A stretch of DNA of 64,000 nucleotides, from the NCBI GenBank assembly GCA_021464415.1, contig CM038468.1, forward strand, positions 186,001 to 250,000. The letters are read 5' to 3'. Every line of letters begins with the position of its first letter. Positions within the stretch are counted from its first letter, which is position 1. Below, piece by piece: positions 33,161-63,901 of this stretch. A program made the position numbers and the translations under genes. The notes beneath the pieces are model-generated. The model saw only the letters and a program-made list of their open reading frames with translations. It ran no database searches and was not told the DNA's origin. The DNA is from Lonicera japonica (lineage: Eukaryota; Streptophyta; Magnoliopsida; Dipsacales; Caprifoliaceae).

Positions 33161-34844
33161 TGTGAGAATCCGCAAATGCGACCCCCGAGTCTCGTCCCCG
33201 TTCGTTTGGTCGTCTGAAACGTCGGAAGGGATCCCGTCGTTCCATTTGCTTGGAGTTTGTGTTGATAATTCATATCGGGTGTCCCTACGTCTATTTCTAG
33301 ATGCAAAAGGGGTTCGTTCAGAGTCGCCAGTACGTTTTACGAGAAAACGGACAAAAAGGTTGTGTAAGAGAAAAGGGTACATATAAGCCTTTCTTTACAC
33401 GTTTGTCTACGAAACCAGTATTCTATAGGGTTCGGGAACTATATTACGGTTTGGGAAGGTGTTAAGCACCCATTCCGCCCTTTCGGTCTCTAGTGGTCTT
33501 ATATGTTTATTCTATGTTGAGAAACTTGGATGCTTTTACTGACAGTCTACTACTTTTCAAATGAAAACCCTAATTTTCGGGGGAAAACGGGAAAGGGGTA
33601 GAAATCTTTGTGTTCCGAGATCCGATGTTTTTATTATTGAAAGATGTAAATACAAATGACAACAACCTTTTATTTTGAAAGAGTATCCCGTATTATTTTC
33701 TCAGATAATGACGGTTTTCTCGTGTTGTGATTACTTTTGTAAAAGTTCGGATCTATATCGGGACTAATTTAATATGGAACTAGAACTCTTTGAGGGGAGT
33801 TATCAGACACGTCGCAGTCTATAGAGAAGACAGGATATGTTGATTTTAATTCCTAGATAAGTCGTTTCAGTCCGGGTTTTTGAAAACAGAATTTTATCCG
33901 GACGATAACGTACTTACTCTTCTGGTTTTGCAAATGGTTTTATCAGGGTCTTTTGTTTTGAAGATGGTAGACTATTTATAACTTGGCAATAAGTTTATTC
34001 AAATAAAACGTGGACAAAACAACAGAAATAAAACAAGTACACAGACAAACCTGATTTTCGGGCGCGTTAGAAACCTAGCACAACCACGTTGCCACTTCGC
34101 TTACCAGAAAAAATCGAATTCTAAAAGTTTACAATAAAACAAATATGCAAATATTTAATTACTAGAAGAGACTTTATTTACCTTCCCGACGAGAATAATA
34201 ATAAGAAAGAGAATATAATACGGCAGAGAGATCTCCGGCGATAATAATCTTATCCTTCTTCAGATATTTCCGAGAATTCGATTCCCGAGACTGGACACGT
34301 TGAGTGTCAAGATAGATTCGATAATTCTTCAGAAATAAGACGATAATAGAAAATACTAGACGAAAGATCAGAAAATCAGATAATAAACCCGCAATTCTGC
34401 TCTAAAACTGCTGTTTTTTGCTGTGATGTTGGTGTGTTTCAACCTTGGGTGCTGCTGGCCTATTTATAGTGCCGAAAGGTGTATGTCGCGCGACATATTG
34501 GTGTATGTCGCGCGACAATCTTGACCGTCGCGCGACATTCTACTTTAATGATGATTCTGACTCATTGCTGAGTCAGAAAGTGGAGTGGTGGGGTGTTTGT
34601 CGCGCGACATGTTCCCCAAAAGGTAGGATTGTCGTGCGACATACTGGTGTATGTCGCGCGACAATCTTGACTGTCGCGCGACAATCTTGAATGTCGCGCG
34701 ACATTCCACTTTAAAACATGTTTGTTTGGCCAATAGACGCTTCCGGGGCAGTCTCGGGTGTTCAGGTGGGTCCCGGAGTCCAGAAACAACAGTTCTCGAA
34801 GGTTGTTAGGGTTCTTGCGGGGGTCAAGAATCGGGGTGTCTATA
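33161..34844 (-). repeat. 3' LTR of Tat element A
   Basis: Minus-strand end GGATTCTCACA (33161-33171 in complement) is identical to the end of the element B 5' LTR. The GAGACCGAAAGGGCG-type block shared by all three Tat LTRs lies at 33451-33490 in complement. The start is less certain. TATAGACACCCC (complement of 34833-34844) after a purine-rich GAGAGGG looks like a mutated TGTAGACACCCC terminus, giving about 1684 bases. TATA box and palindromic boxes are inside U3. Confidence 0.65.
34460..34703 (-). promoter_or_regulatory. LTR promoter of element A: eight TGTCGCGCGACA boxes and TATA box
   Basis: CTATAAATAG (complement of 34460-34469) is the TATA box. The 12-base palindrome TGTCGCGCGACA starts at 34484, 34506, 34598, 34652, 34672 and 34692, with one-base variants at 34526 (CGTCGCGCGACA) and 34630 (TGTCGTGCGACA). 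Spacing is often 20-22 bases (about two helical turns). The same box stands upstream of both antisense genes of this element and not elsewhere in the window. Confidence 0.85.
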
Positions 34845-34959
34845 GACCCTCTCGACTCAAGCTCCTTGCTTGCAAGGAATTGAGGCGACTGGAAGAGACC
34901 ATGATCCATGGCTCCCGTATGAACTCTAAAGGAGTATGTGTATGCAACAGGTGCTCGTG

Positions 34960-35760
34960 ACTGCCTCCGGAGGGGCTTTTTGTGTTTAGTTTTGCCTCCG
35001 GAGAAGGCTTTTGTTACCTCATTGCCTCTTTCGAGGGCTTTTTGCTCCACGCGCCTCCCCTCGGGAGGGCTTTTTGCTCCACGTGCCTCTTTGGGAGGAC
35101 TTTTTGCTCCACGTGCCTCCCTGGGAGGACTTTTTGCTCCACGTGCCTTCCCCCGGAAGGACTTTTTGCTCCACGTGCCTCTCCTCGAAAGGACTTTTTG
35201 CTCCACTTGCCTCCCCCCGGAAGGACTTTTTGCTCCACGTGCCTCTCTGGGAGGACTTTTTGCTCCACTTGCCTCCCCCCGGAAGGACTTTTTGGTCCAC
35301 GTGCCTCCCCCCGGAAGGACTTTTTGCTCCACTTGCCTCCCCCTGGAAGGACTTTTTGCTCCACGTGCCTCTCCTCGAGAGGACTTTTTGCTCCACTTGC
35401 CTCCCCCCGGAAGGACTTTTTGGTCCACGTGCCTCCCCCCGGAAGGACTTTTTGCTCCATTTGCCTCCCCCCGGAAGGACTTTTTGCTCCACGTGCCTCT
35501 CTGGGAGGACTTTTTGCTCCACTTGCTTCCCCCGGAAGGACTTTTTGCTCCACGTGCCTCTCTGGGAGGACTTTTTGCTCCACTTGCTTCCCCCCGGAAG
35601 GACTTTTTGCTCCACTTGCCTCCCCCCGGAAGGACTTTTTGCTCCACGTGCCTCTCTGGGAGGACTTTTGCTCCACGTGCCTCTCTGGGAGGACTTTTTG
35701 CTCCACTTGCCTCTCTGGGAGGACTTTTTGCTCCACGTGCCTCTCTGGGAGGACTTTTTA
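34960..35760. repeat. Minisatellite array, 30-33 bp unit, about 23 copies
   Basis: The unit is GGACTTTTTGCTCCACGTGC followed by CTC and a variable CCCCCCGG or TCTGGGAG. Because unit length is mostly a multiple of three and lacks stops, several frames on both strands stay open for 200-360 codons. These are not credible proteins. The array lies between the 3' LTR and the PMD promoter of element A. Confidence 0.85.
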
Positions 35761-35779
35761 ACCTGTAAAAGAAAGAAAG

Positions 35780-36290
35780 AAAGAAAATTACCTCCGGAGA
35801 GGGCTTGTGCCTGTGGAAAGGACTTGATGACCGGTTTGCCTGTAGAAAGGGCTTATGTGAATGGATTGCCTCCAGAGAGGGCTTGTGCCTGTAGAAAGGA
35901 CTTGTGGGTGATGTTTTGCCTGTAGAAAGGGCTTATGTGAATGGATTGACTCCGGAGAGGGCTTGTGCTTGTATAAAGGACTTGTGGGTGATGTTTTGCC
36001 TGTAGAAAGGGCTTATGTGAATGGATTGCCTCCGGAGAGGGCTTGTGCCTGTGAATTGCCTCTGGAGAGGGCTTGTGTTGGTGAATTGCCTCCGGAGAGG
36101 GTTTGTGTTGGTGAATTTGCCTCCGGAGAGGGCTTGTATTGGTGAATTGCCTCCGGAGAGGGCTTGTGTTGGTGAATTGCCTCCGGAGAGGGCTTGTGTT
36201 GGTGAATTGCCTCCGGAGAGGGCTTGTGTTGGTGAATTTGCCTCCGGAGAGGGCTTGTGTTTGTGAATTGCCTCCGGAGAGCTTCTCGGG
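35780..36290. repeat. Minisatellite array, 30 bp unit with longer variants
   Basis: From 36027 the unit GCCTCCGGAGAGGGCTTGTG plus TTGGTGAATT repeats about nine times. The left part (35790-36026) has longer ~60-90 base compound units containing CCTGTAGAAAGG. The common core CCTC..GGAGAGG(A)CTT links it to the adjacent array, so both probably grew from one ancestral unit. Confidence 0.8.
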
Positions 36291-37020
36291 GTCTAATCGG
36301 GATGTCCATTTCCCTGTATCTTTCTGAACTTTACTCTCATGTTTTCCTCGAGTGAAGATACTTCACTCAGAAGGCAGTTTTCGGATTTCTGTGCTCTCCG
36401 CAGAGTGATGGTCCGAGGTTTTCCAAATCATCTCTTATGTATCTTGCTGAAAAGAAAATTTGTTTGAAAGTTCAATCTCTGATCTCTATTATCTTCTTAG
36501 TTTTCTCTTTTTGGTGGGCCCACATCGTTTTCTGTTTTTCGATGCCTTTATTTCTCCCTCTTTTGGGAAAGACTTTTCCTGGCCTTTTCTATTTTTCACC
36601 AGGAGTCTTTTCATCCCTTTGTCGTGATCAGGAGCCTTACCCACCCAAAACGAAGCCATGAGCTGGTTTTGGCCTAGCTGTCACTTTTGGTGTGGCTCTC
36701 CCTGTCACTCTGCATTTCTGTTTCTCCCGCTCGCTCTGGGCGCTCGTGCGGGTTCTTTCTCTTTTCTACTCTTTCAATTTTTTCTATTCCCGTCTTAATC
36801 TGATATATTGCTTTCTCTCATCGACGGTCTCGGTCTTCTTGGGAGATCAGAGATTACTTTTAAACTTTGTGTCTTGTTCTCGCTTTTTCGGAGAGATGAT
36901 TTGGAAGTCCTTCCTCGTGTTCTCATCTCGGGTGTGCGGTTTTTAGCAATTTTTTTCGAAAACTGCTTCTCGGAAGTCCTCCTGCAGGAGATAAAATCAG
37001 ACAAAGGTCAAAAAAAATCA
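36291..37020. other. Unassigned element A sequence
   Basis: No gene or repeat recognised. It is pyrimidine-rich on the plus strand (for example 36540-36600 and 36690-36780), so on the minus strand it is purine-rich. It lies upstream of the PMD promoter. Confidence 0.4.
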
Positions 37021-37035
37021 GGGGAGGACACTGAT

Positions 37036-37120
37036 TGTCGCGCGACACCTCGTGAGAGGGCTCTTTGTCGCGCGACAATGATGCCATTTGTCGCGCGACA
37101 TTTGGTTCCACTATATAACC
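37036..37120 (+). promoter_or_regulatory. PMD gene promoter of element A: three TGTCGCGCGACA boxes and TATA
   Basis: Perfect palindromes at 37036-37047, 37066-37077 and 37089-37100, then CTATATAACC at 37111-37120. The ATG of the PMD gene is at 37264. The box is the same as in the element's own LTR and DUF7745 promoter. Confidence 0.85.
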
Positions 37121-37263
37121 CTCTTGCTGAGCTCATTCCAGCTCATTCTCTCCTTCCTCTTTCTCTCTCTAGCTTCTCTTTCTCTCTCTTTCTCTCTTCT
37201 CCTAAGCACGGAAGCCCTGCTGTTTTCCCGACTTTCTCGTTTATTCCACTCATATATATACAG

Positions 37264-40200
37264 ATGGATCCTCCAGAGCCTGATAGATTGGAGGGTGACC
37301 AGGAGGAGATTACTTTCACAGACGCGCAGGGCGTTCTTCGGTGTAGTCCTCATCACGATGACTGGGAGGACTTGGATTGGTATGCCGAGGATGGGGTGGA
37401 CCGCAGTCGGGCGGTGGTCTACCGAGATGCTACCCGGGCTGCTCCAGTCCCGGATATTCCATGGCTCTTGATGGAGCCTGCTTCCCATGAGATTCGTCGA
37501 CGATCTTTGGTATTTTTTCTTGAAATTCTATCTTCTTTTGATTTATTTCTGCCGTTTCCTGCACGTATTTTAAACAATTCATATTTAGCATACATGTCTG
37601 CCTAGGAATAGCGTCCGATTTTGTGAGTCCGTACTTTTACTTGTGATACCTTTTAGGTTTTTAGAAAATTACATAACGTACCCCTATAACTCTATAACTC
37701 TCATAATTACACCAAAGTACCCTAAGGTTTGGAAAATTACATAATTTACCCCTATAACTCCATATCTCTCATAATTGCACCAAAGTACCTCAGGTTTGGA
37801 AAATTACATAATTTACCCCTATAACTCCATATCTCCCATAATTACACCAAAGTACCCTCAAGTTTGGAAAATTACATAATTTACCCCTATGACCCTAAAA
37901 CTCTCATAATTACACCAAAATACCCTCCGGTTTTGGAAAATTACATAATTTACCCTTATATCCCTATAACTCTCATAATTACACCAAAATACCCTCAGGT
38001 TTGGAAAATTACAAAATTTACCCTTATAACCCTATAACTCTCATAATTACACCAAAATACCCTCAGGTTTGGAAAATTACATAATTTACCCTTATAACCC
38101 TATAACTCTCATAATTACACCAAAATACCCTCAGGTTTGGAAAATTACATATTTTACCCTTATAACCCTATAACTCTCATAATTACACCAAAATACCCTC
38201 AGGTTTGGAAAATTACATATTTTACCCTTATAACCCTATTACACCAAAATACCCTCAAGTTTGGAAAATTACATAATTTACCCTTATAACCCTATAACTC
38301 TCATAATTACACCAAAATACCCTCAGGTTTGGAAAATTACATAATTTACCCTTATAACCCTATAACTCTCATAATTACACTAAAATACCCTCAGGCTTGG
38401 AAAATTACATAATTTCCTATAACCCTATAACTCTCATAATTACACCAAAATACCCTTAGGTTTGGAAAATTACATAATTTACCCCTATAACCCTATAACT
38501 CTCATAATTACACCAAAATACACTCAGGTTTGGAAAATTACATATTTTACCCTTATAACCCTATTACACCAAAATACCCTCAAGTTTGGAAAATTACATA
38601 ATTTACCCTTATAACCCTATAACTCTCATAATTACACCAAAATACCCTCCGGTTTGGAAAATTACATAATTTACCCTTATAACCATATAACTCTCATAAT
38701 TACACTAAAATACCCTCAGACTTGGAAAATTACATAATTTCCTATAACCCTATAACTCTCATAATTACACCAAAATACCCTCAGGTTTGGAAAATTACAT
38801 AATTTACCCCTATAACCCTATAACTCTCATAATTACACCAAAATACACTCAGGTTTCTTATATCCATATCTCCATTTGGTTTGCAGTGGGTTGGCCGAGG
38901 TTGGGGTTCTCTCAACACTATATCTTCGGAGTGGCGACGGGCACAGGCCCCTGTCTAGGAGTTGCTCCTTGCGACTCCTTTTGGCTCCCTCTTCGACGCC
39001 CTCCCGGAGCGAGTTTCTAGGTCGACGGTTTTGGTGTCGGCACTGGCTTGCCATTGGTGGGATACTACTCATACCTTCCATTGGAGCTGGGGTGAGATGA
39101 CGATGACACCCCTCGATCTTTTTGCTCTGACTGGGATATCTTCAGGGGGGTCCCTATTCGGATTGACGTCCCTTTGCGTCTGACGGCGGAGGGCATTGTG
39201 GGCGCACTTGGGTGGTTCCCCGAGCGACGAAGTTCGGGTGATACGATTCCTCGGGGTGTCTTAGTTACGCGACTAGCCACAGAGAGAGCTCGACTAGTTG
39301 CTTCAGGGGTGCCGATGACCCGTCAGGAGGCGCGTCAGTATGCCCGCGTCCTTCTCCTACTGACACTCCATGACCTATTCGAGGCCCGTGGGGGGGACAC
39401 GGCCCATCTTTGGTGGTTGCCCTATCTTCGGGACTTCAGCCTCATGTTTGACTATGACTAGGGCGGCTTCATTCTCGCAGTCCTATATGATGCCATGGAC
39501 CAGGTCTCTCGCCATTTAGCCTTGAACCTCAAGGGCTTCTCTTTACTATGGGAGGTACTTACTTTTGTCCCTTTATCTTTGCTTTGGACCTTCATATATT
39601 ACCTGTAGATTATTGCTAAAATCCTTTATCTTTCTTTTCCAAAGTTGGTTTGTGGCATACACACGTCTGGGCCTGGCCCAGGTGGATCTCCTCGTTGAGA
39701 ACGAGGATCAGTTTCCCCTTCTCCGCCGATTCATCGCGGGGAACTATAGGGCTCCTTATGTATACCGGATTAGGGAGACTGGAGCTGCTGCTGTCCACGA
39801 CCTGTTGGAGGAGCAGGTAAATATGTTAATATTTTTTCAATAAATAGTAATATAAAATATGAATTACTAAAATAAAATCTTATTCTCTTTTCAGATTGAG
39901 TGGGCCCCCATTTTGGATATGGCCGTGCTTTGGCTGCTTCGAGGACCAGGCGGCTCATCAGAGACGAGTACGGCTTTCACTTCTACTTGGGTGAGAGAGT
40001 TATTCGCCAGCATTCGCCTGCCCAGTGGCCTCGGGTTCCTTTATTCCCGCCAGTTTAGATGAGGCGGACCGGTGAGATTGACTCTGTGATGGTGCAGTCC
40101 CTTATAGGCGGGCTCGACTTTCAGAGGTTTACTGAGGAGGAGGATTATGCCGTCTTTGCTGCCCGTTATCTGATGAGGGAGCCGAAGGGGACTCGGGGAC

Positions 40201-41394
40201 GGGTCTTCTACGAGAGGTACCGGGCGTTGGGAGGTGATCCCAACTACATACGAGGGCAGACTCACTTGTCCAGGACTGTCCCTGGTTACTTGCCGCCTAT
40301 CCCTGATCAGAGGGATAACATTTTGGACTCTGATGATGATGATCCGGATGGCGAGAGGGACGTCCCTGCTGGTGCTGAGAGAGGTGGTGATAGACCCGAG
40401 GGTGCTGATGATAGGCCCGAGGGTGCTTAGGGAGGTGGGACGGCGGCGGTTCCAGAGCAGTCGTCTCCGACTGTACCGACAGAGGGACAGCATACCGAGA
40501 GAGAGAGGGGTGATTTCTCTGAGCGGTCCTGGGAGCCTGCAAACCTTGGATTTGGTTACGAGCATTTTGGGCGGACTCCTTCTACTACTGCTGCTACTTC
40601 TAGTGGGGTCCAACCTTTGAGGGAGACGGCTGTTGTGGACCCTCCTGGTGTTCGTACCTTCGCCACACTGACTCCTCTTCCGTCTGCTGTCATGGGTCCT
40701 CCGGTCAGATCTACAGGTCTTGGTGGCTCGTCTTCTCGTCCTCCTTTGTTCCCGATTTATGAGGAGGGCGGGTCTACTTCTGCTGCTATGTCAGGGAGTT
40801 CGTCCATTCATCCAGTAGATCTACCGTCACTCCCTCGAGACTTCTCCTATGTTGGTGCTGGCTTACGTCGATATGCAGTGCCTGAGTATCCTCTCCCTGG
40901 AGACACGTTTGACTACTTGGGTGGCCGTTCTGGTGATGAGGTATGTGCTTTTCTTCCTTCGATATCTTTTCATATCCATGCTTGCTTATTTTATCGGTGC
41001 TGATTCTTCTTTCTTTTCTTTTCAGCGGGTGAGCGTGCGAGTGGCAGATCTGAGGGCTTGGCACTCCCAGTACCTTTATAGCTGGAACCTGCTCCAGTAC
41101 GTTGGTCGAGACCCTACGACATACATGCGGGACTATTAGAGGGCGATCGACGTTTCCTTACGGGCAGATGACCCTCTGTCTTCCTCTCGCGCTTGGACGG
41201 AGTCTCGGAGGAGCAGTAGCCGGACTTCCAGGCGATCTCGATCCTCGGTGATCCGGTCCACGGCTCCGGTCCAGCCGACAGGGCCTTCGCAGGCAGCGGC
41301 TCCTTCTACATAGGGCGTCCCAGAGGTTGATCCTACTCCCGAGGAGGGTTCGGGTGATAGTGGGAGTGTGTCCAAACGCTCCCGATTATATTAG
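37264..41394 (+). pseudogene. Plant mobile domain (PMD) gene of element A, five exons, broken
   Basis: Exons by homology with the intact copy in element B: 37264-37509, 38887-39554, 39645-39816, 39895-40940, 41026-41394, all with GT-AG borders. Exon 1 gives RCSPHHDDWEDLDWYAEDG and LMEPASHEIRRRSL. Exon 2 has the PMD signature HTFHWSWGEMTMTPLDL and HDLFEARGGDTAHLWWLPYL. Exon 4 has the YLMREPKGTRGRVFYERYRA and GGDPNYIRGQ block, then a Ser/Pro-rich acidic tail. Lesions are TAG at 38956-38958, a frame change at the G-run 39144-39149, TAG at 39459-39461, a frame change in early exon 4, TAG at 40056-40058 and 40428-40430, and TAG at 41137-41139. Several look like CAG or TGG to TAG changes, as expected from cytosine deamination. 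The gene is antisense to gag-pol. PMD proteins in plants act in gene silencing and transposons; a role here is inferred. Confidence 0.85.
37650..38860. repeat. Minisatellite in PMD intron 1, ~70 bp unit, about 18 copies
   Basis: The unit contains TAATTACACCAAAATACCCT, CAGGTTTGGAAAATTACATA and ATTTACCCTTATAACCCTAT, with a few truncated units. It enlarges intron 1 to 1377 bases, against 179 bases in element B. It is AT-rich and non-coding. Confidence 0.9.
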
Positions 41395-41701
41395 CTTTCC
41401 TTCCTGCATTTAGTTAGTCCTGACAAATATGTAGTTTTTATTCTTAGACTTTTAGACAGGGTTTTTTTGTAGAAAAACTGTTCTTTTATTGGTTTTATAT
41501 ATATATAAAAAAATCTTCATTTGTGTCTGATGATGATAATCACATGAATTGATAATTTTCGGAAATGTACCTTTGTTATGGCATAATACTTAAGGTCCCT
41601 GCAAAAAAACAGAGTGAGTACAAGTACACAAAAGTGGATCTTTTGGCAAAACCGACTCTTACGTGTAAGAAAAACTCAAAACAAAGCACACCCAGGGAGT
41701 T

Positions 41702-41780
41702 TGTCGCGCGACATTCCCTCCCGGACATGGGTTTGTCGCGCGACAAACAGGTACAGGAGCCCTCTTTTTTGCTATAAATA
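41702..41780 (+). promoter_or_regulatory. DUF7745-like gene promoter of element A: two TGTCGCGCGACA boxes and TATA
   Basis: Perfect palindromes at 41702-41713 and 41734-41745 (32 bases apart), then TATAAATA at 41773-41780 and the ATG at 41820. Confidence 0.85.
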
Positions 41781-41819: not shown

Positions 41820-43028
41820 ATGTCCTCTTATCTCACAAATTCTGATTTTTCTTACTTTGAAGCCCGAGATGCTCTGATATCTTCTGAGAATGGCTTGAAC
41901 TTTGGTGTATTCAGTCCTTTAGCAAGCTGGTGCCATCGTCCTGTAGATTTCTCCTTTTTGCTTGGCGCTCTGTACTTTTGGAGTCCTGCCGATCATCTTT
42001 TCCGTTTCGGACTAGACGAGCTCTGCCCGACTTATGAAGAATTTTCTTGGCTATTGCGTTCTGACGTTCGCGTTTCGATGGCTATTCTCGTAGAAGAAAT
42101 CGGTCCTCGAGAGATGCTGATTGCTCTGCTAGCCATTCCCCAAGCGGCTTGTGATGGCTTCATTACTGACGGACTCCTTGACCTCCATAAAATGGTGAGG
42201 TTCTTTCATCGCTATGAAGAGAGAGCTTTTTATAGTGCGGGACGTACTGTGGCAGCCTTGATTTGTCTGGTTTCTGATATGCTACTGGTGACGGGCTCTT
42301 CCCGTGTTGATCCGACTATTCTGAGTCTGATTTATCATGCTAGGAATAGGGAATCCATAGTGCCCATAGTTCTAGCCGAGACTCTGAATGGTCTAGATGA
42401 TCTCAAAAGGGGAGCTTCACCCTTCTTCAGGGGAATTCCACGCTTGCTATATATGTGGCTATTGGAGCGTTTCCGATCAGTGGGCTTTAATGGGGTTCAG
42501 CTTGACAACCCGACATTCTTCTTCCGTCGTCCCCTCTTTGGCGCCTTGACCATGTCCTCCTCTGATTGGACGGTATGGTTTTCAGAGAATTCTAGGGCCA
42601 TTCGGTGGAACATTCCTTGGTGGAAGCTGAGGGCGATAGTGCTTAGTACCGGGGGGCAGCATTACATTCGACTCCGTGGACTCTGGTTCACTTCTTTTTA
42701 TCTCCCAGGACGTCTTCTTCGGCAGTTTAACATTCCCCAGGGCATTCCCCTTGGCCTGCACAACTTTTCTTCTGAGTCTAAATATTTGACCCAGCATATT
42801 TCTTCATCGATGGAGAGAATGTGGTGTGCTCGACTGACTCGTCAGTTCAACCCTGCCTGTTTTGGTATTTCCAGGCCCCTCCGGGCTGACATCATCCGTT
42901 CTCTTTGGGGTTCTCTTGAAGATGAGTTGATCGATGACCCCTTTCAGATGGAGTGGTTTCGATTCATGAATTCTGAGCCTACAGAAGAAAGCATTGTCTC
43001 TGCGTACCAGATTCTGGACGAGGCTTGA
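41820..43028 (+). CDS. DUF7745-like protein of element A (402 aa), antisense to pol
   Basis: Single uninterrupted frame from the first ATG, 40 bases after a TATA box. Recognisable blocks shared with the element B copy are FSFLLGA..FW.P.DH.FR.GLDELCPT.EEF, then FAETLNGLD-type text (VLAETLNGLDDLKRG), LYMWLLERFR, FSENSRAIRWNIPWW and TSFYLPGRLLRQF. This pattern is the plant retrotransposon-associated DUF7745 family, placed from memory of the family text and not by search. No signal peptide or clear membrane segment; it is rich in Trp and Arg. Biochemical role is unknown. It remains intact although the neighbouring PMD gene and pol of this element are broken. It ends 255 bases from the converging pol stop. 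A role in regulating the element or its silencing is inference. Confidence 0.8.
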   Translation: MSSYLTNSDFSYFEARDALISSENGLNFGVFSPLASWCHRPVDFSFLLGALYFWSPADHLFRFGLDELCPTYEEFSWLLRSDVRVSMAILVEEIGPREMLIALLAIPQAACDGFITDGLLDLHKMVRFFHRYEERAFYSAGRTVAALICLVSDMLLVTGSSRVDPTILSLIYHARNRESIVPIVLAETLNGLDDLKRGASPFFRGIPRLLYMWLLERFRSVGFNGVQLDNPTFFFRRPLFGALTMSSSDWTVWFSENSRAIRWNIPWWKLRAIVLSTGGQHYIRLRGLWFTSFYLPGRLLRQFNIPQGIPLGLHNFSSESKYLTQHISSSMERMWCARLTRQFNPACFGISRPLRADIIRSLWGSLEDELIDDPFQMEWFRFMNSEPTEESIVSAYQILDEA

Positions 43029-43282: not shown

Positions 43283-46200
43283 CTATTGATAATACTTCTT
43301 CAGTCGATCCATGTTGACTGGAGAATGCAGTAATTGTCCATCCAAATCAGCGAGTATAGCGGCACCCCCTGTATCAATCTCTTTGACGATGTATGGCCCT
43401 GTCCACTTTTGCCCGAACTTCCCTCTTGGGTCTCTGGCTGGTTCTCGAATTTCTTTCAACACGATGTCGTTCTCATTGATACCCCGAGTCTTTACCTTTT
43501 GATTAAATGCCCGAGCGATTCTCCTCTGATACCCTTGGTGGTGATATGCGGCTTTCAATCTTTTCTCATCTAACAATGCCAACTCGTCGTAACGTGCCTG
43601 GACCCATTCCAGCTCATTAACTTGATTCTCTAACATTACTCTGAGAGAGGGAACCTCTAATTCAACAGGGAGGACTGCTTCCATCCCGTATGTAAGTGAA
43701 AATGGTGTTGCCCCGGTAGAGACCCTTTCAGTGGTGCGGTATCCCCATAATGCGTATGGTAATTTCTCTGGCCAGTCCCGACAGGTGTCGGTCATCTTGC
43801 TCAGGATATTCTTCAGATTCTTGTTGGCGGCTTCAACTGCCCCATTAGTTTGCGGTCGGTATGGCGAAGATCTGTGTCGGGTAATACCGTATTCTTCTAA
43901 GACTGTATTAGCTTCTCATTCAAAGTGGGTGCCGTTGTCCGAGACGATCTTGTGTGGGACCCCATACCGGCAGACGATATTCCTTTTGATGAATCTGTCA
44001 ACTTTCTTGGCATCCAAGGTCTGGTAAGACTCGGCTTCCACCCATTTGGTGAAGTAGTCGATGGCCACTAGTATGAATTCATGGCCGTTGCTGGCTTTGT
44101 GCGAAATCTTCCCAATGACGTCGATTCCCCATGTAGGGAAGGGCCAGGGAGCAGTCATGTTGTACAACTCTTTCGGAGAAAGTTTCTGAGACTTAGCGTA
44201 AATTTGGCACTTGTGACAACGGCGTACGTGGTTAATGCAGTCGTTTTGTAGGGTAGACCAAAAATAACCTTGTCTGATGATTTTGCGGGCAAGTGTATGA
44301 CCGCTCATATGAGGTCCGCAATCGCCTCCATGTATCTGATCCATCATTTTGACTGATTCTTTTTCGGTGAGACATTGAAGATGGGTCCTGTCGTAGTTCC
44401 TCTTATACAGCCTTCTGGCACAAAGTATGAACCCGGATGCTAACCTTCTGAGTGTGACCCGCGTTTTCTTATCTGTTTGCTCGGGATACAGATGATTTTT
44501 CAATAAGTTCCAGATGTCATAAAACCAAGTAGTCGAGTCCCCCTCTTTTTCGTTCTCTACCTCAAGGGCCATGCAGTGTGCTGGCCCTGATTTCCTTTGT
44601 ACCGTAAGAGTAATTTCTTCCATCCCCTCCGGGATATCGATCATAGATGCCAAGGTTGCCAGTGCGTCAGCAAAACTGTTCTGTGACCTGGGGACATAGT
44701 AAAACTCTGCATGCTCGAACTTTCCTGCGACATCCTCTAGTCGGGTGAGGTAAGGGACTAATTTCTCATATCTGATCTTCATTCCTTCAGAACTTGGTGG
44801 ACCACCAGTGCTGAATCTCCGTATACCTGTATTCTCTGTATACCCCTTTGGAGCGCGATTTCCAACCCAAGTATGCAGGCTTCATATTCGGCCATGTTGT
44901 TGGTGCAAAGAAATCTAAACGATACGATACCGAGGAGTGAGTTTGATCTGGAGAGACCAAAAGGATGCCTATCCAGTTTCCGTTTCGATTGGCGGCCCCG
45001 TCGAAATATAATTTCCAGTCTTCATCGATCTCGACATTCATGATAGTTTCATCCGGGAACTCGACTTCTTCTAGCATGTCCCCCAATATCGGATTGTGGG
45101 CCAGGTAATCAGCTATGATCTTGCCTTTGACTGCCTTCTGGGTCATGTAGGTGATGTCAAATTCGGAGAGCATGAATAACCACTTTGCCATACGATTCGA
45201 GAGAGCTGGTTTCTCGAAGAGGTATTTTAGCGGATCAATTCGTGATGCCAGGATGACTGGAAAGACTAACATGTAGTACCGTAATTTCTGTGTTACCCAG
45301 ACGAGAGCGGCGCATGACTTCTCTAGCGGTGTGTAGTTTATCTCAAATGGGGACACTTTTTTGCTGATGTAGTAGATAGCTTGTTCTTTTCGAGTATCAA
45401 CTACATGTTGGGCTAGCATAGCTCCTGCAGCTGAATTCATAACCGTTAGGTATAAGATTAGTGCCAGTCCGGTCTGTGGTGGGGCTAATACTGGGGGATT
45501 GGAGAGATAGTCCTTGATTCTATCAAAAGCCTCCTGGCACTGTTCGTCCCACTCTCCCGGTGAAGATTTCCTCAGGAGTTTGAAGATGGGCTCGCAGGTC
45601 TGAGTGAGCTGAGAGATGAATCTACTGATGTACTGCAAGTTACCCAAAAACCCCCGGACTTCTTTCTCGGTACGAGTCTCAGGCATTTCTTGGATAGCTC
45701 GAACCTTGGCAGGGTCTACCTCGATTCCTTTCTTACTAACAACATAACCTAAGAGTTTTCCCTTGGTCACCCCGAACACACACTTTTGCTGATTGAGCCT
45801 CATCTGGTACTGGTGGAGGCGGTCAAAAAAGGCTCGTAAGGCTGGTACATGGCCTTCCCTTTCTTTTGATTTGATTATCATGTCGTCCACATATACTTCT
45901 ACTTCTTTGTGGATCATGTCGTGGAAGATAGCTGTAGCTGCCCTCTGATATGTTGCCCCAGCATTCTTCAGCCCGAATGGCATAATAGTGTAGCAGTATG
46001 TTCCCCATGGCGTGATAAATGTTGTTTTCTCTTGGTGATCTGGGTGCATCTTGATCTGATTATACCCGGCAAAACCGTCCACAAATGACTTCAAGGCATG
46101 GTTGGCAGTATTATCCACTATCAAATCAATGTTGGGTAATGGGAAATCGTCTTTTGGGCAGGCTTTATTGAGATCTCGGTAATCCACACACATGCGGACC

Positions 46201-46983
46201 TTCCCATTTGCCTTCGGAACGGGCACAATGTTGGCTAACCATAAAGGGTATCTCGTGCATGACTATTTGGCTGTTTAAACCTGGCATATCAGCATAGGAC
46301 AAGGCGAAGATATCCACGTACTCATTTAGAGTTTGTGTGAATTCTTCTCTTTCTGTCTCATTTAGACTTGCCCCAATACGGACTTCCTTCCTTTCCTCTT
46401 ATGTTCCAAGGTTAATTATAAGAGTGTCTCCTTCTTCGCTTTGTATACGCTGACCCTCCCGTTCAGGGTGTTCATTTAGTCTTTCCAACTCCATATAAGC
46501 AATTACAGAATTGGAACTAACAGGATAACGCAAAATAGAGTCTTCCTCATTAATGATAGTGCTTACAGGTACAAGTTTGAAAAGTAAATTTAGGAAAGAC
46601 TCTTCCCTACCCTTTCCCCCACTCTTATCTTTCACCCTTACAATTTCACTTTTTTCCCCCTCTTTCTGGTAATCTGGATCAGCGTGTATTAGGTGTACAG
46701 GGTCGTCTCTTGGCTCGTCATCCCCTAGAGCCATGATATCGAAGAGATTTCCGGTCATTTCTTCCTCTTCCTTGTCTTCACTTTCTTTTCCTGGTCCGAT
46801 CGTCAATTTGGTAGAGAAGTTGTGCATAACGTTTTCCTTGATATAAAGGTCCTCTTCATAGAAGATTTCCCATCCCGGAAGGCTATCTCCATCACTGTTT
46901 CTCCAAGGCTCTTGAAAGCCACAAAAGGGGAAATCCTCTCCTTCTTTGACAAAAAACCCATTCAGAGAGCTGAAACTCAGATA
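43283..46983 (-). pseudogene. Tat element A pol (RT, RNase H, second RNase H, integrase), broken
   Basis: Reads on the minus strand after a single in-frame TAG that closes gag-protease. Blocks: KEGEDFPFCGFQEPW leader; reverse transcriptase with KANGKVRMCVDYRDLNKACP, FGLKNAGATYQRA and VEVYVDDMIIKS; RNase H (QAIYYISKKVSPFEINYTPL); second archaeal-type RNase H (YFDGAANRNGN) marking the Tat lineage; integrase zinc region (GPHMSGHTLARKII...CHKCQIYA) and core (WGIDVIGKI...FTKWVE...SDNGTHF...NGAVEAANKNL). Lesions: TAA near 46396, a ~130-base deletion near 46240 that removes the segment before the RT, a frame change near 44910, and a TGA near 43914. It ends with LPVNMDRLKKYYQ-type text (as HSPVNMDRLKKYYQ). 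Confidence 0.9.
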
Positions 46984-48849
46984 CTAATGCCCTCGGCTCA
47001 TTTTCTCTTGGTCGTCCTCTCCGGTGTGTTGATACCCCAAACCTTCCCTTTCAAACCTCAGTATCGGTTCTAAAGCCTGAAGTAATCCTGATTGTCTCGT
47101 TCCCAAACTGGCTCCAGGTAAGTATTTCATCTTTCTCAACATATTCGTGATCTTGGTGCTGAGACCGGGGATATTATCAGGGGGTAGATACTCGATTCTC
47201 TGGGTGGTGAGAGCTTGTACTTGAGGCTCATAGGAAAAGCCCCCCAACTGTATGCTCTGACTACCGATGCCCAAAACAGGTAACTCCAGATCTGCCAAGG
47301 TCCTTTCAGGATATCCTTGGATGGTGATTACGTTCCCATCGAATGGTATCTTGATCTTCTGGTGTAAGGAGGAGGGGAGTGCTCCTATGTCGTGTAGCCA
47401 TGCTCTTCCCAACAGTAGGTTGAAACTGGAGGGAATGTCTATGATTTGGAACTCGGCCGAAAAGCTTCCGGGACCGACCATGAGATCAAGCTTCAAAGAA
47501 CCCAGAACGGCCCTCCTGGTGTTGTCATAGGCCCTGACGGTTACGGCTGATGGAGAAAGTTCTGAATCCAATATACCCAGGCATCTGGCGGTCTTCAGGG
47601 GGCAAACATTTATAGTCGACCCGTTATCGTTGAGAACTTGCGGCAGGATTTTTCCTCGAGTCCGAACAGTGATGTGGAGAGCCAGGCTGTGTTTCTTCCC
47701 CAATGGAGATAAGTCTTCATCTGAAAATGACAGACTTCTTTGAACTATAAGTGACCCAATCATGCTTGGCAGTTGTTCGGGCGTGGAGTCTGGCGATATG
47801 ACAGCCTCATCTAGGAGTTTGATGAAAGCGGTCTTGTGAGGTTTGGAGGCGACCAGGAGGCCCCAAATGGTGATGTGGGCCTGGGTTTTCTTCAACTGTT
47901 CCAATACTCGATCTTCTCCTACTTCCTTAGGAGGTGGTGTTTTCTCGGCGTCCATTAGCGGTGGATGATATACCCTTCCCGAATGGGTAATTTGCTGTAT
48001 CCAAAGGGATGCTGGGTCTGATCCCTCTGAGACTTCCGGTGATTCTGGTTCTGTTGACCAACTGAAGGGTTTGGGGGAGGATTCTGTCATACAGATTGTC
48101 TCCTTGGGAAGGCCTCGGGGATTCCATGGTTGTTTCTTCCTGTCTTGGGTCCATCCTATCCCAGCTTTTTCGGGATTGGTTTTGATTGAAAGTGGCTGTG
48201 AGATCCCCTGATTGGTTCTTCCTAAACCCTGCCCGGGCAGAAAGTTCATCTTAGCCATCCATTGGTCGATTATCGGATTAAGGCCTGGCGCCATTTGAGC
48301 CTTTGCTGGCGGTACGACGGGTGCCTTGCAGGCTGGGTCATCTCGAATGAGTCTTACGAGGTCAAAGCCTTCTTCATCAGTGGTCAAGGCATTAATTCCC
48401 GCAGGTGGAGCATGGTTGGGAAGTGGGTTGTTGGTAACATTGGGCCCGCCAGGTGCGGGAATGGTTCCGGCTTCAATGAGGTCCTGCATACGGTGACGAA
48501 GAGCCAAGCAGCGTTCCGTGTCATGGCCTGCTGCTTGATGGTATGCACAGTTTTCATTCATCCTCCAAGTAACGGGAATAGGACTTGGTGGAGGACGTGG
48601 GTTGAGTGGGGTGATTAGTCCAGCTTTTCGGAGTAGTTCCAAGCTTTTGACCAGGGTAGTGGGAAGAGTACAGAAGTTCCTTTTTCTCCTGACTTCAGTG
48701 CTCGAAGAATCTCCTTGCGCTGGCCAATTCATCGGGGGTGCTTGTTGTGACTGCTGAAACGGATTCGGTTGGTACGGGTACTGTGAACACCCCAATCCAC
48801 GACTCTCGTGCGAATACTGATTTTCTTTAAGCATCCTGCATTTAATCAT
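46984..48849 (-). pseudogene. Tat element A gag-protease, N-terminally truncated
   Basis: A 621-codon open frame that starts where the gag of element B is at about residue 470. Seen: a zinc-binding-like segment NENCAYHQAAGHDTERCLAL, a first G-patch-like region (FLPGQGLGRTNQGI...AGIGW), a linker, the protease block ILPQVLNDNGSTINVCPL (DNGS active site as usual for Tat) and NLLLGRAWLHDIGALPSSLH, then a second G-patch-like region (YLPGASLGTRQSGL...REGLGY). It ends at a TAG in frame with pol. The capsid domain is missing because element B is inserted near 48850. The upstream minus-strand text includes a TTAAATGCAG acceptor-like sequence, so the visible ATG is probably not a real start. Confidence 0.85.
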
Positions 48850-49039: not shown

Positions 49040-50153
49040 TGAGCCAGCCGCACCCCCCTGTCGCACGCCCAACCGTACGGCTACCTGCCAACCGTACGGT
49101 TGGCACCTCCTAGCCGCACCCCCCTGTCGCACGCCCAACCGTACGGCTACCTGCCAACCGTACGGTTGGCACCTTCTAACCGCACCCCCTAGTCGCACGC
49201 CCAACCGTACGGCTACCTGCCAGCCGTACGGCTGGCACACCCTGTCGCACGCCCCAGCCGCACCCCATGCGGCTACCCCTGCGGTTGGCCTCTTTTGGAG
49301 CGTTTTTGGCGCAAATGTTGCTATAAATAGGACCCTTGGGATCCCATTCTTGGGGCATCAAGATTGAATAGTATTTTGGGTAAGAAGGAGCTTTGTCAAA
49401 GTATCTAGAAAGTCATTTTTAGAGAAATTCTGAGAGAAGGCTAGTGAGAGAAAGCTCTAGAGAGAGAAAGCTTTAGAGAAAGAAGGAAGACAAGGCAAAG
49501 TCCTCCTATCTTCTGCAAGCGCAGCAGGTATAACTTTCTACCAAATCCTTAATTTCAGTACTGCATTTAATTTCGTTTTTAATATAGAAAATTAGATAAC
49601 TTGCAAAGAAGTTCACTGCTTTCAAAACAAATCCTTTCTAAGTTTTACAAGAAATCTAAAACCTGTTTTGACACGTTTTCAAAACAAACAAAAATACAAA
49701 AACAGTTTCCAAAAGAAAGGAACTACGAGACTCTGATTTCATTCTACGAATGAATACGTAGGCGCTCGCAAAGCTCGAGTCTGATTTCAAAATATTGTTT
49801 TAAACTAAATTTATCCGGAAAGGACTATTCTAAAAAACCATTCGAACTACTTGCAAGATATCTAAAATAGGAATTAAATACATGATCCATTAAGAGACCG
49901 AAAGGGCGAATTGGGTGCCTAACACCTTCCCAATTCGTAATGTAGTTCCCGAACCCTAGCAAAGTCAATTTTCAAAATAAATCTCTGGTTTCAAACGTAT
50001 GAAAGATAGTTCGTTTTCGAATCATCCTTCGTACGACCTTTTGTTTGTTTTCTCGTAAAACAAACTGGCGACTCTACAAAACACGTTTTCAAAGAAAACC
50101 GAGAAAGGACTACTCTTTTCTCCTTCTCGGGGGTATGGGTCCGGATTCTCACA
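49040..50153 (+). repeat. 5' LTR of Tat element B (left edge approximate)
   Basis: The end GGATTCTCACA (50143-50153) matches element A and is followed directly by the primer binding site. U3 holds the palindrome array and TATA box at 49321. The 49894-49935 block (GAGACCGAAAGGGCGAATTG, GGTGCCTAACACCTTC) is shared with the other Tat LTRs. A TGGCGACTCT 10-mer at 50066-50075 repeats the primer binding site sequence inside U5. A donor-like CAGCAG|GTATAA lies at about 49527. Confidence 0.75.
49073..49330 (+). promoter_or_regulatory. LTR promoter of element B: six CCGTACGG palindromes and TATA box
   Basis: Palindromic cores CCGTACGG at 49073, 49092, 49139, 49158, 49205 and 49224 (8 bases each). They form three pairs 19 bases apart inside a 66-base tandem repeat. 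The most symmetrical copies extend to CCAACCGTACGGTTGG. CTATAAATAG lies at 49321-49330. The same box precedes both antisense genes of element B. Confidence 0.85.
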
Positions 50154-50171: not shown

Positions 50172-51193
50172 ATAGTAGAGAACTAAGCTCTGACATAATG
50201 GATCATATATTTAATTCCTGTTATTTATTAGGTTTAGGTCTTGTAAGCCTTAGTTCTAGGATAACATAGAAACGATTTAGGTGGATACCCTGATGCCTTT
50301 ATTTGCTAATTATGTGAGGAAGATCTTTTTCATAATTAAAATTGTGTAAATTACAGTAACAAACCCTAAAGAATTGATCAATAATGAACTGCCATATTGT
50401 TATTTTGCACGCACTCACGTCTTATCATGCATTTTCGCGAGTATGAATTTACCCTATCAACCTCGGGACCAGAGTCGTGACTAGGCCGTGGACTTGCGGG
50501 TCTGCACTAGCCAAAAGCGCCTGGGACCACTCTCCTTGGCCAAGTACTTACCGAGGTATATAGAGTGACGAGAACACTCACGTACCCGGGATGTATATCA
50601 AAAGGTTCTTACACGTACCTGCGCTCTTGAGGTATATCGTAAGACCTGCCAAATAGGAGGGAGCCTTAAACCTTACCCTCTTCAGCCACGCTTGCATATA
50701 GGGGAGTCAGCTTAGAACACAAAGATTTTATGCATGGTTTTAATGACCAACAGTCGTGAGAATCTAGTGAGCGGAAGCCCTGATTCCATGAACAAAGCAA
50801 CTCATGAGGAGAGACCTTCCCATATTTTTCAAATGATTTTTCGAAAAAAAAAAACTCTTTTCAAAATGATTTCCCAAAACTATAGACGGTCAGGGAACCC
50901 ATGGAATTCTATTCCTACCCTACCGCTATACGGGACTCTCAAGTTGTTGCCGTTGGTCTGTTTTCAATCTCACCTAAAGAAAAACTTTTTTGTGTGTTTA
51001 TTTTCGTCCCGATCGATGTATTTCTGGATAAGGTCCGGCAATTTCTAAATGATATATTGTTGTTATTTTCCGGGGGAATGCACGCGATCGAATTTGTCCT
51101 TTTTTCCGCAAGCAGCAGATATTCATCCTGGCCTCTGTGTGGGCTGGAAGAGATAGCACCGGGAGACTCGTCAGACCAGATTCCTCTGAAAAC
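50172..51193 (+). other. 5' leader of element B
   Basis: About 1 kb between primer binding site and gag without a credible gene. It contains several short upstream ATGs and an A-run at 50845-50854. Confidence 0.5.
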
Positions 51194-54100
51194 ATGGATC
51201 AGAATACCCCGAACCGGAATGTGAACAACCAATTGAACAATGCAGCGGATCCGCCGCCCGGTCCTTTTTACCCAAACCCGGGAATGCCGCAGAATAATAC
51301 TGTTGGGGGTCAGCCGCTACATCATACTCCATCCTTGAATGTTGATCCAAACCTAGCCAGTTCAAGCGGAAACATGAATGCCCCGTTACCGAATCCCGAA
51401 GATATGTATCGAATGTTGATGAATTTGAACCAAAGCATGACCATGTTATTAAGTGACAATAAAAATACTCGTGCCAAGTTGGACGAGTTGGCTAAAGGGC
51501 GCATGACAGAATCACCAAGAGAAACTCCGGTTATTCTACCACCACCACCGCCACTCTCAGTTCATACCGAAGTACCACCGCCATATGAACAGTTGAACCA
51601 ACCCAAACCCATGCCTGATCCGGTCGGCAATTGGTTACAACAGGACCTGACCAATCAAGCCCCTCCACAGATGCAACCGGTCCATGAACCATACCACGAT
51701 CCGTATTATGACCCAATGAGAAGGCCCATGAGTATCCAAGGGGAGGGCCCCACGCCAATAGAAACTCACCGGGGGGATAGAGACTTGTCTGAGCTTAAGG
51801 AGCAGTTGAAAGCACTTACCCAAAAAGTAGCTGAGAGTTCGAACGATTTAACCCAGATGCAAAGCTACAACTTATACCCTGAGGCTCGTTATCCCGTGGG
51901 TTTTAAGATGCCCTCCATCCCAAAATTTACAGGCACTACACCACCAGAACTCCATCTGAAATCTTATGTCCGTTCAATGAGAATTTATGATCTCGGTGAG
52001 GCTGAATTAGCCAATTCCTTTCACCTCACTTTGGCAGGACCAGCCCAGAGTTGGTTTTTGAACCTTGAAAAGCATCGTGTTAGATCATGGTCCGCCATTG
52101 TCCAAGAGTTTGTGTCACAGTACAAAACTAATGAGGAACTTAAAGTTACAAGGAAACATCTAGAGATGGCTAAGCAGAAGGAGAATGAGAGTATTAGTGA
52201 GTTTGTAACAAGATGGAGGGAACTGGCCGCCCAAATGGTGGAGCGCCTAGATGAAGAGGAACAACTCGGAATGATTGTGAAGAATTTGAAACCAGATATT
52301 CGGACCCAAATGGGACACCAGTTCTTTGGCAGGTTCAAAGCCTTACTCCACGTAGGCAACGAAATTGAGGAGGAATTAGCCAAACAGGCTGAAATCAAAA
52401 AATCCGCTTCACAGTACAAGAAGACTTCCACGTCTGCCATCAATCAAGTTACGTCTTCTGGGTCCTACGGTCGGGGGTATTCCGGCAACCCCTTTGGTCA
52501 AAACTCTGTGAAAAACATTGGGGATTTGGGATATCGTAACAACAACAACAGTAATCTCAGGACATTTGATCAGAATCGCTCACGAGATAGACATTTTTCG
52601 CAATTACCGGGACCATTGGGAAAGGTTTTCGAACAACTGAAAGAAGCCGGGATTATGTATCCCATGAATCCAAGGCCATTACCACAACAGATACCACCTC
52701 ATTGGAACATGAATGAACATTGCGAATATCACCAAGGCTTCGGACACACTACCGATAGTTGTATGGCCCTGCGGCATGCTATCCAGAACTTAATTGATAA
52801 CAAAAAGATTCCTGACCCGTCAGCCCCGAATGTTGCAAGGAATCCCCTCCCCAATCACCGGATAAATGCTATCGAGGAGGATTCAGATTTACCAGATCCT
52901 GTACTCTTGATTAAACCCGCCGGGAATACAGAAAATGTTGAAGTTTGGAAATTCAGCTGTCCAAAGCCTTCCCCCACAGTCATTCAATATACTCCACCGA
53001 GGTCCCAGAAATCCGTTGAAAAAGTCGAGGATGAAACATTGTTGGCGTTATCCGTTGATGAAACATGCACCATGCAGTCACAAGAGATGGTTAGCCCAAA
53101 AGTTATGGGCTGGATGAAACAAATGCAGTTCATACCAGGTTTTGGGCTCGGTAAACAGAATCAAGGGATCGCCCACTTTCCACAGTTTAAAGGCAACCCG
53201 AGGCGACAAGGGCTCGGGTATAACCAAGGAAAAACAATAAAAAAGAACACCCATCCAAGAAAGAATTGCTCACAGATAAACATGATCACCTTCAACTGGA
53301 ATACAGTTTCGCAAGTCAATGAGGGGCCACCTTCAACTCCAGTTGAAACACCTGAAGGGGCAAGTGATCCGGTCGCGACATGGGTCCAACAATTGACCCG
53401 TTCTGGGAGAGTGTACCAACCGCCAAATACCAAGCAACCTATTGATGTCGCTCTTCCCAACGAACCTGCAAAAAACCCGGAAGAAGGGCGTGTTGTTGAA
53501 CAATTAAAGAAAACACAAGCCCAAATTTCAATCTGGGGACTCCTGGTAGCATCCAAGCCACATCGTATGGCACTAATGAGAATGTTAGATGAATCGGTTG
53601 TTCCTCTTGAAGCCACCCCAAATGAGTTAACAGCGATGATCGCTTCAATGGGGGTACAAAAACAAGTTCTTGGGTTTTCTGATGAAGATTTATCACCACT
53701 GGGTCGGGATCATAACCAAGCTCTACATATCACCGTTGTTGCTTATGGAATGTCTATACCGTATGTGCTTGTCGATAACGGCTCTACAATTAACGTATGC
53801 CCGTTGAAAACTGCTGTTCGTTTGGGTATTGATTTAACTGCCATGGAAGAATCACCAGTCACAGTACGAGCATACGACAATACCAAGCGGGAGGTATTAG
53901 GTTCCGTCATGCTGAGTATGCAAATAGGACCGGCTTCATTTACCACTGAGTTTCAAGTCATAGATATCCCTTCAAGCTTTAATTTGTTGTTGGGACGAGT
54001 TTGGTTGCATGAGGTTGGCGCACTGCCTTCTTCCCTTCATCAAAAAATGAAAATACCCTTCAACGGGGATATCATCATCATCAAGGGAGATCCTGAAAGG

Positions 54101-54417
54101 ACAATAGTCCCAAAAAACTCGCCAGTATTGGGAATCGGAAGCCAAGATGTCCAACTCGGGGATTTTCGTATGAGCCAAAGGTGCAAACTCTTACCATGCA
54201 GACTGTGAATTATCTGCCCCCTGATGATATGTCGACCATGAATACGCAAGTAATAAAGATGATGAGGAAAATGGAATTTTTACCGGGGATTGGTTTGGGA
54301 AAATATCAAGCCGGCATTGCCCAAATGATCGAACCATTCCAACAACCGAGTCCTCTTGCCGGGTTGGGATATGTGGGAGATTTTAGCCGAATGAAAAGTT
54401 GCCGTATCTGCCGATAG
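51194..54417 (+). CDS. Gag-protease polyprotein of element B (one frameshift near 54167)
   Basis: ATG at 51194 (MDQNTPNRNVNNQ) chosen as the first Met after a stop-free but unconserved stretch. Pro/Asn-rich N-terminus (residues 1-190); coiled-coil-like LSELKEQLKALTQKVAESS; capsid (Retrotrans_gag) about 230-400 with AQSWFLNLEKHRVRSW and EFVTRWRELAAQM; zinc-binding-like NEHCEYHQGFGHTTDSCMAL; first G-patch (FIPGFGLGKQNQGI...QGLGY); protease with VLVDNGSTINVCPL and NLLLGRVWLHEVGALPSS; second G-patch (FLPGIGLGKYQAGI...AGLGY). A one-base loss near 54167 moves the frame between protease and the second G-patch, so the uninterrupted product ends at 54208. Gag assembles the particle; the protease matures it. 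The frame change may be a real lesion or a sequence error. Confidence 0.85.
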
Positions 54418-59763: not shown

Positions 59764-59857
59764 CTATTTATAGTATAACTGCACATGCCAACCGCACGGT
59801 TGGGCCCCAACCGTACGGCTGGCTGGCCAACCGTGCGGCTGGCTCCCAACCGTACGG
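59764..59857 (-). promoter_or_regulatory. DUF7745-like gene promoter of element B: four palindrome boxes and TATA
   Basis: On the minus strand CTATAAATAG (complement 59764-59773) is preceded by palindromic boxes at 59792-59799 (CCGTGCGG as read on minus), 59811-59818 (CCGTACGG), 59831-59838 (CCGCACGG on minus) and 59850-59857 (CCGTACGG). Spacing is 19-20 bases as in the LTR. Confidence 0.85.
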
Positions 59858-59899
59858 CTATCCCATGCGGGTGGGGCGTGCGGCTGGCTCTCCCCATTT

Positions 59900-63300: not shown

Positions 63301-63595
63301 GGCGGATCTCGTGTGCCGCAGGCTCCATCAACAGCCACTCTCGCCCCTCTCCCGGCGAGATCAAGGGTACGTCCCGGTACATCGCCCGCTGAAGCGATCC
63401 GTCTGCCCCCAGTGGCCCCTCCCAGGCCACACCCTCCCAGTCGTCATGATGTGGCGCGCAGATCAGGCGCCCATCCATCATCGCGGTGATCGACTCCACC
63501 TCGTCCCCCGGGAGTAGCTCCGGCACCTCCCCTCCCTCTGGTGGGCCTCCCATCATCATGTACACGAAGATCGAAAGTAATCTCGCAAATGCCAT
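60379..63595 (-). CDS. Plant mobile domain (PMD) protein of element B, five exons, 925 aa, intact
   Basis: Exons on the minus strand: 63595-63290, 63110-62448, 62345-62172, 62088-60793, 60717-60379, total 2778 bases. Each intron (179, 102, 83 and 75 bases) has GT..AG ends and phase 0, and the joined frame has no stop until 60379. Exon 1: CAPHHDDWEGV and LMEPAAHEIRRRTR. Exon 2: PMD core with WWDTTHTFHWSWGEMTLTP, LTGLPFGGEAL and FYARGGDNLRLWWLPYL. Exon 3: MWFIAHTHQGIGQIHLHP and FPLFRRYYSG. Exon 4: YLMREMKGVRGRVIYARYAA, GGDPMYIRGQ, then a long acidic, Pro/Gly/Ser-rich disordered part with GKGKA. Exon 5: Arg/Ser-rich tail with KRPRT, a candidate nuclear signal. PMD proteins are linked to transposons and transcriptional silencing in plants; the element-level role is inferred. 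Antisense to the LTR transcript. Confidence 0.85.
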
Positions 63596-63789: not shown

Positions 63790-63901
63790 CTGGGGGGTCA
63801 AACCCTGCGGCTACCTCGTGCGGCTATCCCCAACCGCATGCTCCCAACCGCACGCCCTGCGGCTACCCCGTGCGGCTACCCTCATTTTTGACCAGTTTGA
63901 C

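Follow-up and report, generated by a model that had tools for sequence, protein, structure and literature searches.

Ogre/Tat retrotransposons with plant mobile domain (PMD) extra open reading frames (ORFs) were reportedly described in 2011 by Steinbauerova. The Tat clade of Ty3/gypsy elements (Ogre/Retand type) is defined by an additional ribonuclease H between ribonuclease H (RH) and integrase (INT), and a PMD extra ORF was counted in 57% of the Ogre elements surveyed (Neumann 2019, PMC6317226). The PMD-A1 and PMD-A2 clades are described as exclusively Gypsy-encoded (PMC5418596), a review suggests that PMDs borne by transposable elements (TEs) may be a counter-silencing strategy (PMC8616336), and the function of the domain is described as unknown (PMC9289625, PMC8616336). 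Here, we analyzed 64,000 nt of Lonicera japonica DNA (assembly GCA_021464415.1, contig CM038468.1, positions 186,001 to 250,000, forward strand), which we call the window. It holds two Tat-type elements, A and B, each with an antisense PMD gene and an antisense DUF7745-like gene, and in each of them a palindromic box of its own stands before the long terminal repeat (LTR) promoter and before both antisense promoters.

The locus resembles the Ogre/Tat elements with PMD extra ORFs in combining a Tat-type pol with such an ORF; it differs in its shared promoter box, of which the available passages of PMC6317226 make no mention. Retand elements carry antisense TRP28 genes (Vicient 2025, PMC11963269), and in maize Grande the antisense gene, driven by a promoter of its own, is reported to yield a nuclear product (Gomez-Orte 2013, as cited in PMC11963269). 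Antisense genes between pol and the 3' LTR, tandem repeats and a proposed regulatory role are common to Retand/Grande and to our elements. However, the protein family is a different one, as no match to Transposase_28 (TRP28) was obtained at E 0.01 in both DUF7745-like genes, the B PMD exon pieces and the six open A PMD pieces, and no box code is mentioned in the parts of PMC11963269 on which we draw.

The VANC proteins of sister VANDAL families, Arabidopsis Mutator-like elements (MULEs), are sequence-specific anti-silencing proteins that act on different short motifs (Hosaka 2017, PMC5735166; Sasaki 2023, PMC10398659); VANC21 binds YAGTATTAY, and AGTTGTCC/AGTTGTAC mark VANC6 targets (PMC5735166). 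An earlier, sequence-only reading of this locus had drawn the comparison with VANDAL elements, and it is apt, given that their motifs are family-specific, short and often arranged in tandem arrays in noncoding DNA (PMC5735166). Here too a short motif clusters in noncoding regions and differs between sister families with diverged proteins. In contrast to VANDAL, a MULE DNA transposon, our elements possess gag, reverse transcriptase (RT), RH, INT and LTR segments and are LTR retrotransposons; their proteins belong to PMD/DUF7745, and their motifs are CpG-rich palindromes right before three TATA boxes, for which motif binding and removal of DNA methylation, as by VANC, would be predictions.

The cellular proteins MAIN and MAIL1 are needed to express a set of genes in whose promoters a "DOWN" motif is enriched, and its direct recognition is one of the two hypotheses put forward (Nicolau 2020, PMC7156037). 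The MAIN/MAIL1/PP7L pathway is similar to our case in that PMD proteins act on genes sharing a promoter motif, and different in that it concerns cellular genes and is also required for TE silencing. PMD extra ORFs in Ogre, antisense genes in Retand and VANC codes are already known. A palindromic box common to an LTR and both antisense promoters, and sister-specific on a shared core, was not found in the open literature, judged by titles, abstract starts and passages; a search with the box letters gave no transposon title among the papers listed, and "DUF7745" was absent from the open literature searched.

One palindrome stands before the three TATA boxes of element A

Element A is a Tat-type LTR retrotransposon on the minus strand, with its two antisense genes between pol and the LTR (about 33.3-34.7 kb; Table 1). 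The 12-letter palindrome TGTCGCGCGACA occurs in 11 exact copies in the window, all at 34484-41745, compared with none in 100 dinucleotide shuffles of the window. When up to two mismatches are allowed, 13 sites are found against a shuffle mean of 0.49, again all within 34484-41745, the two inexact ones (34526 and 34630) having one mismatch each. In an unbiased tally of perfect 12-bp palindromes in the window, TGTCGCGCGACA comes behind only AT runs and the N gap. The 13 boxes are distributed as eight in the LTR, three in the PMD promoter and two in the DUF7745-like promoter, each group upstream of a TATA box. This is the distribution given by the sequence-only reading, with the refinement that its eight LTR copies are six exact and two one-mismatch sites.

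We then compared the surroundings of the boxes. Seven non-tandem A sites (two of the eight LTR sites and all five internal ones, the six tandem LTR sites being excluded) were aligned in promoter direction: pairwise identity is 26.5% over the 40 flanking bases and 100% over the 12 box bases. Between the A LTR (34591-34648) and the A DUF7745-like promoter (41695-41752) there is a gapped alignment of 58 columns with 74% identity when the boxes are left unmasked, and the B LTR (49135-49296) aligns unmasked with the B PMD promoter (63740-63887) at 69.5%, a match that depends on boxes and half-sites. At E 0.01 all six within-element promoter pairs match unmasked, whereas after box masking no pair does, neither in A (0/3) nor in B (0/3), where masking also covered half-sites and left short pieces. 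The alignment of the A LTR with the DUF7745-like promoter is among those lost on masking; what is conserved among the A promoters is the box and no larger block.

The density of the half-site TGTCGY is 50-67 per kb in every A promoter, against 0.35 per kb elsewhere; in B it is absent from both antisense promoters and has a density of 10.7 per kb in the LTR. Box spacings are 20-23, 30, 32 and 72 in A and 19-20 and 47 in B, with a hint of about two helical turns; tandem copies being non-independent, we did not use them as evidence, nor the CpG ratio, which is high for the A LTR boxes (1.62) and not raised for those of B (0.95).

The boxes of A and B differ in their arms and share a core

Element B lies on the plus strand, has the gene order of A and carries ARCCGYRCGGYT boxes at all three promoters, so that the common gene order and three-promoter logic ascribed to the two elements by the sequence-only reading are confirmed. 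The central CCGTACGG occurs ten times in the window, always within B (six in the LTR, two in each antisense promoter), and each antisense promoter has two more sites in the one-mismatch forms CCGTGCGG/CCGCACGG. The resulting 14 B sites were selected as the copies of CCGTACGG within the B promoters that have no mismatch or one; the window contains six further one-mismatch hits outside these promoters, which were not counted and of which one (41156) is inside the A PMD gene. The half-site ARCCGY has a density of 64-72 per kb in every B promoter, 0 in the A promoters and 0.92 per kb elsewhere.

The full A box and the full B box are each confined to their own element. The earlier reading had supposed a private box for each element, to be doubted if one element held both, and on this point it stands. 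It had also called the two boxes unrelated, which no longer holds: the A box is TGT-CGCGCG-ACA and the B box ARC-CGYRCG-GYT, so that both are centred on CGYRCG, with family-specific arms around a shared core, and the B LTR in addition carries three A-like half-sites. CGYRCG is present in 13 of 13 A boxes and in 14 of 14 listed B sites, in B partly by construction. In the window, 35 of its 47 occurrences are concentrated in 1098 bp, the sum of seven promoter stretches picked after the boxes had been seen.

A third, degenerate Tat LTR (C) was identified by an 85% match over 52 bp between 8577-8628 and the B U5. Its near-palindromes, ACGACAAGTGCACTTGCCGT and CACTTGCCGTACGACAAGTG, are followed after about 50 bp by a TATA-like TATATAT at 7813. 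In 20,000 shuffles of the 210-bp C upstream region, at least one such palindrome appeared in 156 and at least two in one, the two observed ones overlapping and sharing bases. The degenerate C LTR region extends over 7731-8760. Searched against the window by tblastn, the two DUF7745-like proteins and three exon pieces of the B PMD gene gave matches only in A and B. The common CGYRCG core, although spotted post hoc, is suggestive of a link between the boxes, and a constant core flanked by arms that differ between families is more readily explained by related readers than by unrelated signals.

A protein of a second honeysuckle appears to preserve the A boxes

Protein searches returned one close full-length relative and, likewise as protein records, ten others that are distant or partial. 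The close relative, P0003 (LguiA_007186, Lonicera macranthoides, Caprifoliaceae), is 87% identical to the A DUF7745-like protein and carries a 41-residue N-terminal extension, apparently promoter read as protein. By back-translation, this extension admits two A boxes and no more, with the 32-nt spacing that the window shows between 41702 and 41734, and the TATA TATAAATA can be encoded 38 nt past the second box (39 in the window), while the B box is incompatible with the residues. Among 200,000 shuffled extensions, two A boxes were possible in none and at least one in 303. Between the boxes, its residues are not the ones that the window DNA would encode. As far as a protein record can tell, L. 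macranthoides thus appears to have kept both A boxes at a distance of 32 nt, along with the TATA box. The sequence-only reading had expected the box to be stable among copies with similar proteins; this single relative agrees with the expectation and is a partial test of it.

No relatives were recovered from viral contigs (queried with P0001, an alignment, a B PMD exon and B pol) or genome contigs (B pol), neither of which is a plant-genome collection.

The antisense proteins diverge faster than reverse transcriptase

The DUF7745-like proteins of A and B share 42% identity over 403 columns. The B protein scores 40 bits against PF24924 (DUF7745; cut-off 26) and the A protein 18.9, below the cut-off. 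Against PF10536 (plant mobile domain; cut-off 34.9), 82.7 bits were obtained with a B PMD exon piece and 38.7 with the open piece 38959-39180 of the A PMD gene, and the two DUF7745-like proteins stay under the cut-off at 25.9 and 26.9 bits.

Between A and B, the nonsynonymous divergence (dN) is 0.15 for RT-RH, 0.19-0.23 for INT (two pieces) and 0.43 for the C-terminal part of gag, compared with 0.55 for the DUF7745-like genes and 0.43-0.52 for PMD (three exon pieces). The antisense proteins have diverged about 3-4 times faster than RT, and also faster than INT, as expected for readers with shifting specificity. Synonymous divergence (dS) is saturated or unreliable between A and B; its saturation indicates that their split is old.

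A putative element-encoded reader of the box

A common trans-acting reader is the simplest cause of one own box at three dispersed promoters per element. We give about an even chance to the interpretation that the element forms a self-directed regulon with the palindrome as its recognition box, read by a PMD/DUF7745-family protein that the element encodes. It builds on the anatomy, the non-chance occurrence of the box, the masked-promoter control, the exclusivity of the full boxes, the compatibility with a second species and the difference in rates. Which protein binds and how can only be proposed, and we infer the following steps. A PMD/DUF7745-family protein made from the antisense genes would enter the nucleus and bind, probably as a dimer, palindromes with the CGYRCG core and family-specific outer bases. 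The box arrays in the LTR and in both antisense promoters would let this protein activate or anti-silence the genomic RNA and both regulators together, the positive direction being our assumption. A shift in the specificity of the reader would then force a shift of the box at all three sites, so that related families end with different boxes; since the pol genes of A and B are related, at least one lineage has swapped its box at all three places.

Several points weigh against this interpretation. The comparison of boxes comprises two elements and one LTR, and the separation of the half-sites is imperfect, the A-like half-site TGTCGCACG occurring three times in the B LTR (49059, 49125 and 49243), in the tandem unit. 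With synonymous sites saturated or unreliable, the noncoding DNA of A and B has turned over, so that the sequences do not single out the box as changing especially fast, and gag diverges nearly as fast as the antisense genes, so that their speed is not unique to them. The PMD family membership of the antisense genes is based on domain scores. No DNA-binding fold was found, the structure model of P0001 having no PDB match at E <= 0.001; this model is poor (mean pLDDT 57.5) and speaks neither for nor against DNA binding, and sequence searches of the PDB gave weak hits only (E 0.24 or worse). Finally, the effect of the element protein could have either sign, and MAIN and MAIL1 are required for TE silencing too (PMC5418596, PMC7156037).

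We are rather more hesitant, at somewhat below even, about the broader proposal that retrotransposon PMD proteins read DNA sequence-specifically and co-evolve with the palindromic CGYRCG boxes of the LTR and antisense promoters of their own element, which would make them an LTR-retrotransposon counterpart of VANC from another protein family. If true, this would provide a function for gypsy PMD genes, suggest that cellular MAIN/MAIL1 share motif reading and offer, for the silencing genes of flowering plants that encode a PMD, a hypothesis at the DNA level. Should the proteins bind the palindrome of their own family but not that of the sister family, self-specific regulation would have arisen separately in retrotransposons. 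For the PMD extra ORFs, the common box of the three promoters represents a concrete target.

The main competing explanation, which we consider unlikely, is that a host transcription factor fires all three promoters, each family having adopted a different one. The part TCGCGCGA of the A box resembles E2F-like and CGCG-type sites. GTAC, the core bound by SBP/SPL proteins (PMC2662457), is present in 10 of the 14 B sites and in the C palindrome, but it is missing from the remaining four B sites and from all 13 A boxes, and the conserved palindrome, at 12-20 bp, is longer than these cores.

It is quite improbable, in our view, that the same element-encoded reader acts with the opposite sign, repressing the LTR and the antisense promoters for copy-number or latency control. 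The need of TE silencing for MAIN and MAIL1 (PMC5418596, PMC7156037) would suit a repressor, as would an autoregulatory layout in which a gap of 11-28 bp separates the TATA box from the nearest box in five of the six promoters of A and B (88 bp in the B LTR). However, the same cellular proteins are also needed to express the "DOWN"-motif genes, and an eight-site array upstream of a TATA box would be more enhancer-like. Least probable of all, although LTR copies lie in tandem duplications and unmasked promoters of one element align, is that functionless boxes without any reader spread from the LTR to the antisense promoters by duplication or template switching, because the alignments disappear under masking, the flanks of the seven A sites are hardly similar, and the boxes seem retained at constant spacing in L. 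macranthoides while the encoded spacer residues differ.

Anatomy of the two elements

The coordinates of the features are collected in Table 1. The pol of B contains RT_RNaseH at 453-554, RVT_3/RNase_H at 602-724 and an integrase zinc-binding domain from 820; a second ribonuclease H thus stands between RH and INT, as in the Tat clade. A primer-binding-site-like TGGCGACTCTGCTGGGGA begins at 50155 in B; the Ogre lineage is characterised by RT phylogeny and a primer site for tRNA-Arg. The U5 segments of A (33426-33491) and B (49893-49958) are 91% identical.

Table 1. Features of elements A and B and of the degenerate LTR C, in window coordinates
Feature	Position	Strand	Description
Third Tat LTR (C), degenerate	7731..7760	+	Two overlapping 20-bp near-palindromes (7731, 7741), second centred on CGTACG
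A LTR from TATA downstream (R-U5)	33320..34468	-	Ends approximate
A boxes, LTR (U3)	34484..34703	-	6 exact, 2 one-mismatch; upstream of LTR TATA 34461-34468 (minus strand)
A boxes, PMD gene promoter	37036..37100	+	3 exact (37036, 37066, 37089); before TATA 37112
A antisense PMD gene	37264..41400	+	Stop-interrupted; end approximate
A boxes, DUF7745-like promoter	41702..41745	+	2 exact (41702, 41734), 32 nt apart; before TATA 41773
A antisense DUF7745-like gene (P0001)	41820..43028	+	Open, 402 aa
A gag C-terminal part, RT-RH, INT	43283..48849	-	Interrupted
B 5' LTR (U3)	49041..49300	+	Three 66-bp tandem units with six boxes centred on CCGTACGG, and additional half-sites; TATA downstream of them at 49322
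B gag and pol	51137..58165	+	Two open frames
B antisense DUF7745-like gene (P0002)	58457..59692	-	411 aa
B DUF7745-like promoter boxes	59790..59859	-	Four: two CCGTACGG, two one-mismatch cores; before TATA 59765-59772
B antisense PMD gene	60382..63595	-	Modelled: five exons, GT-AG introns, 925 aa
B PMD promoter boxes	63742..63877	-	Four (two CCGTACGG, two one-mismatch cores), plus half-sites; before TATA 63706-63713

The N-terminal part of gag and the 5' LTR of A were not found in the window, and they are absent at 48850-49041, where the LTR of the oppositely oriented B starts. As A lacks this part of gag where B begins, B was probably inserted into A, cutting off its gag N-terminal part and 5' LTR, with the far side beyond the window. 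A GC-rich 20-bp near-palindrome is present at 48954, in the A/B junction region.

An AT-rich minisatellite, with about 17 copies of a 68-bp unit, fills the first intron of the A PMD gene (37653-38862). Between the A LTR and the PMD gene (34961-36280) lie minisatellites of 32 bp and 30 bp, and CTCCGGAG occurs 12 times in this interval. The assembly gap of the window consists of 100 N at 18004-18103.

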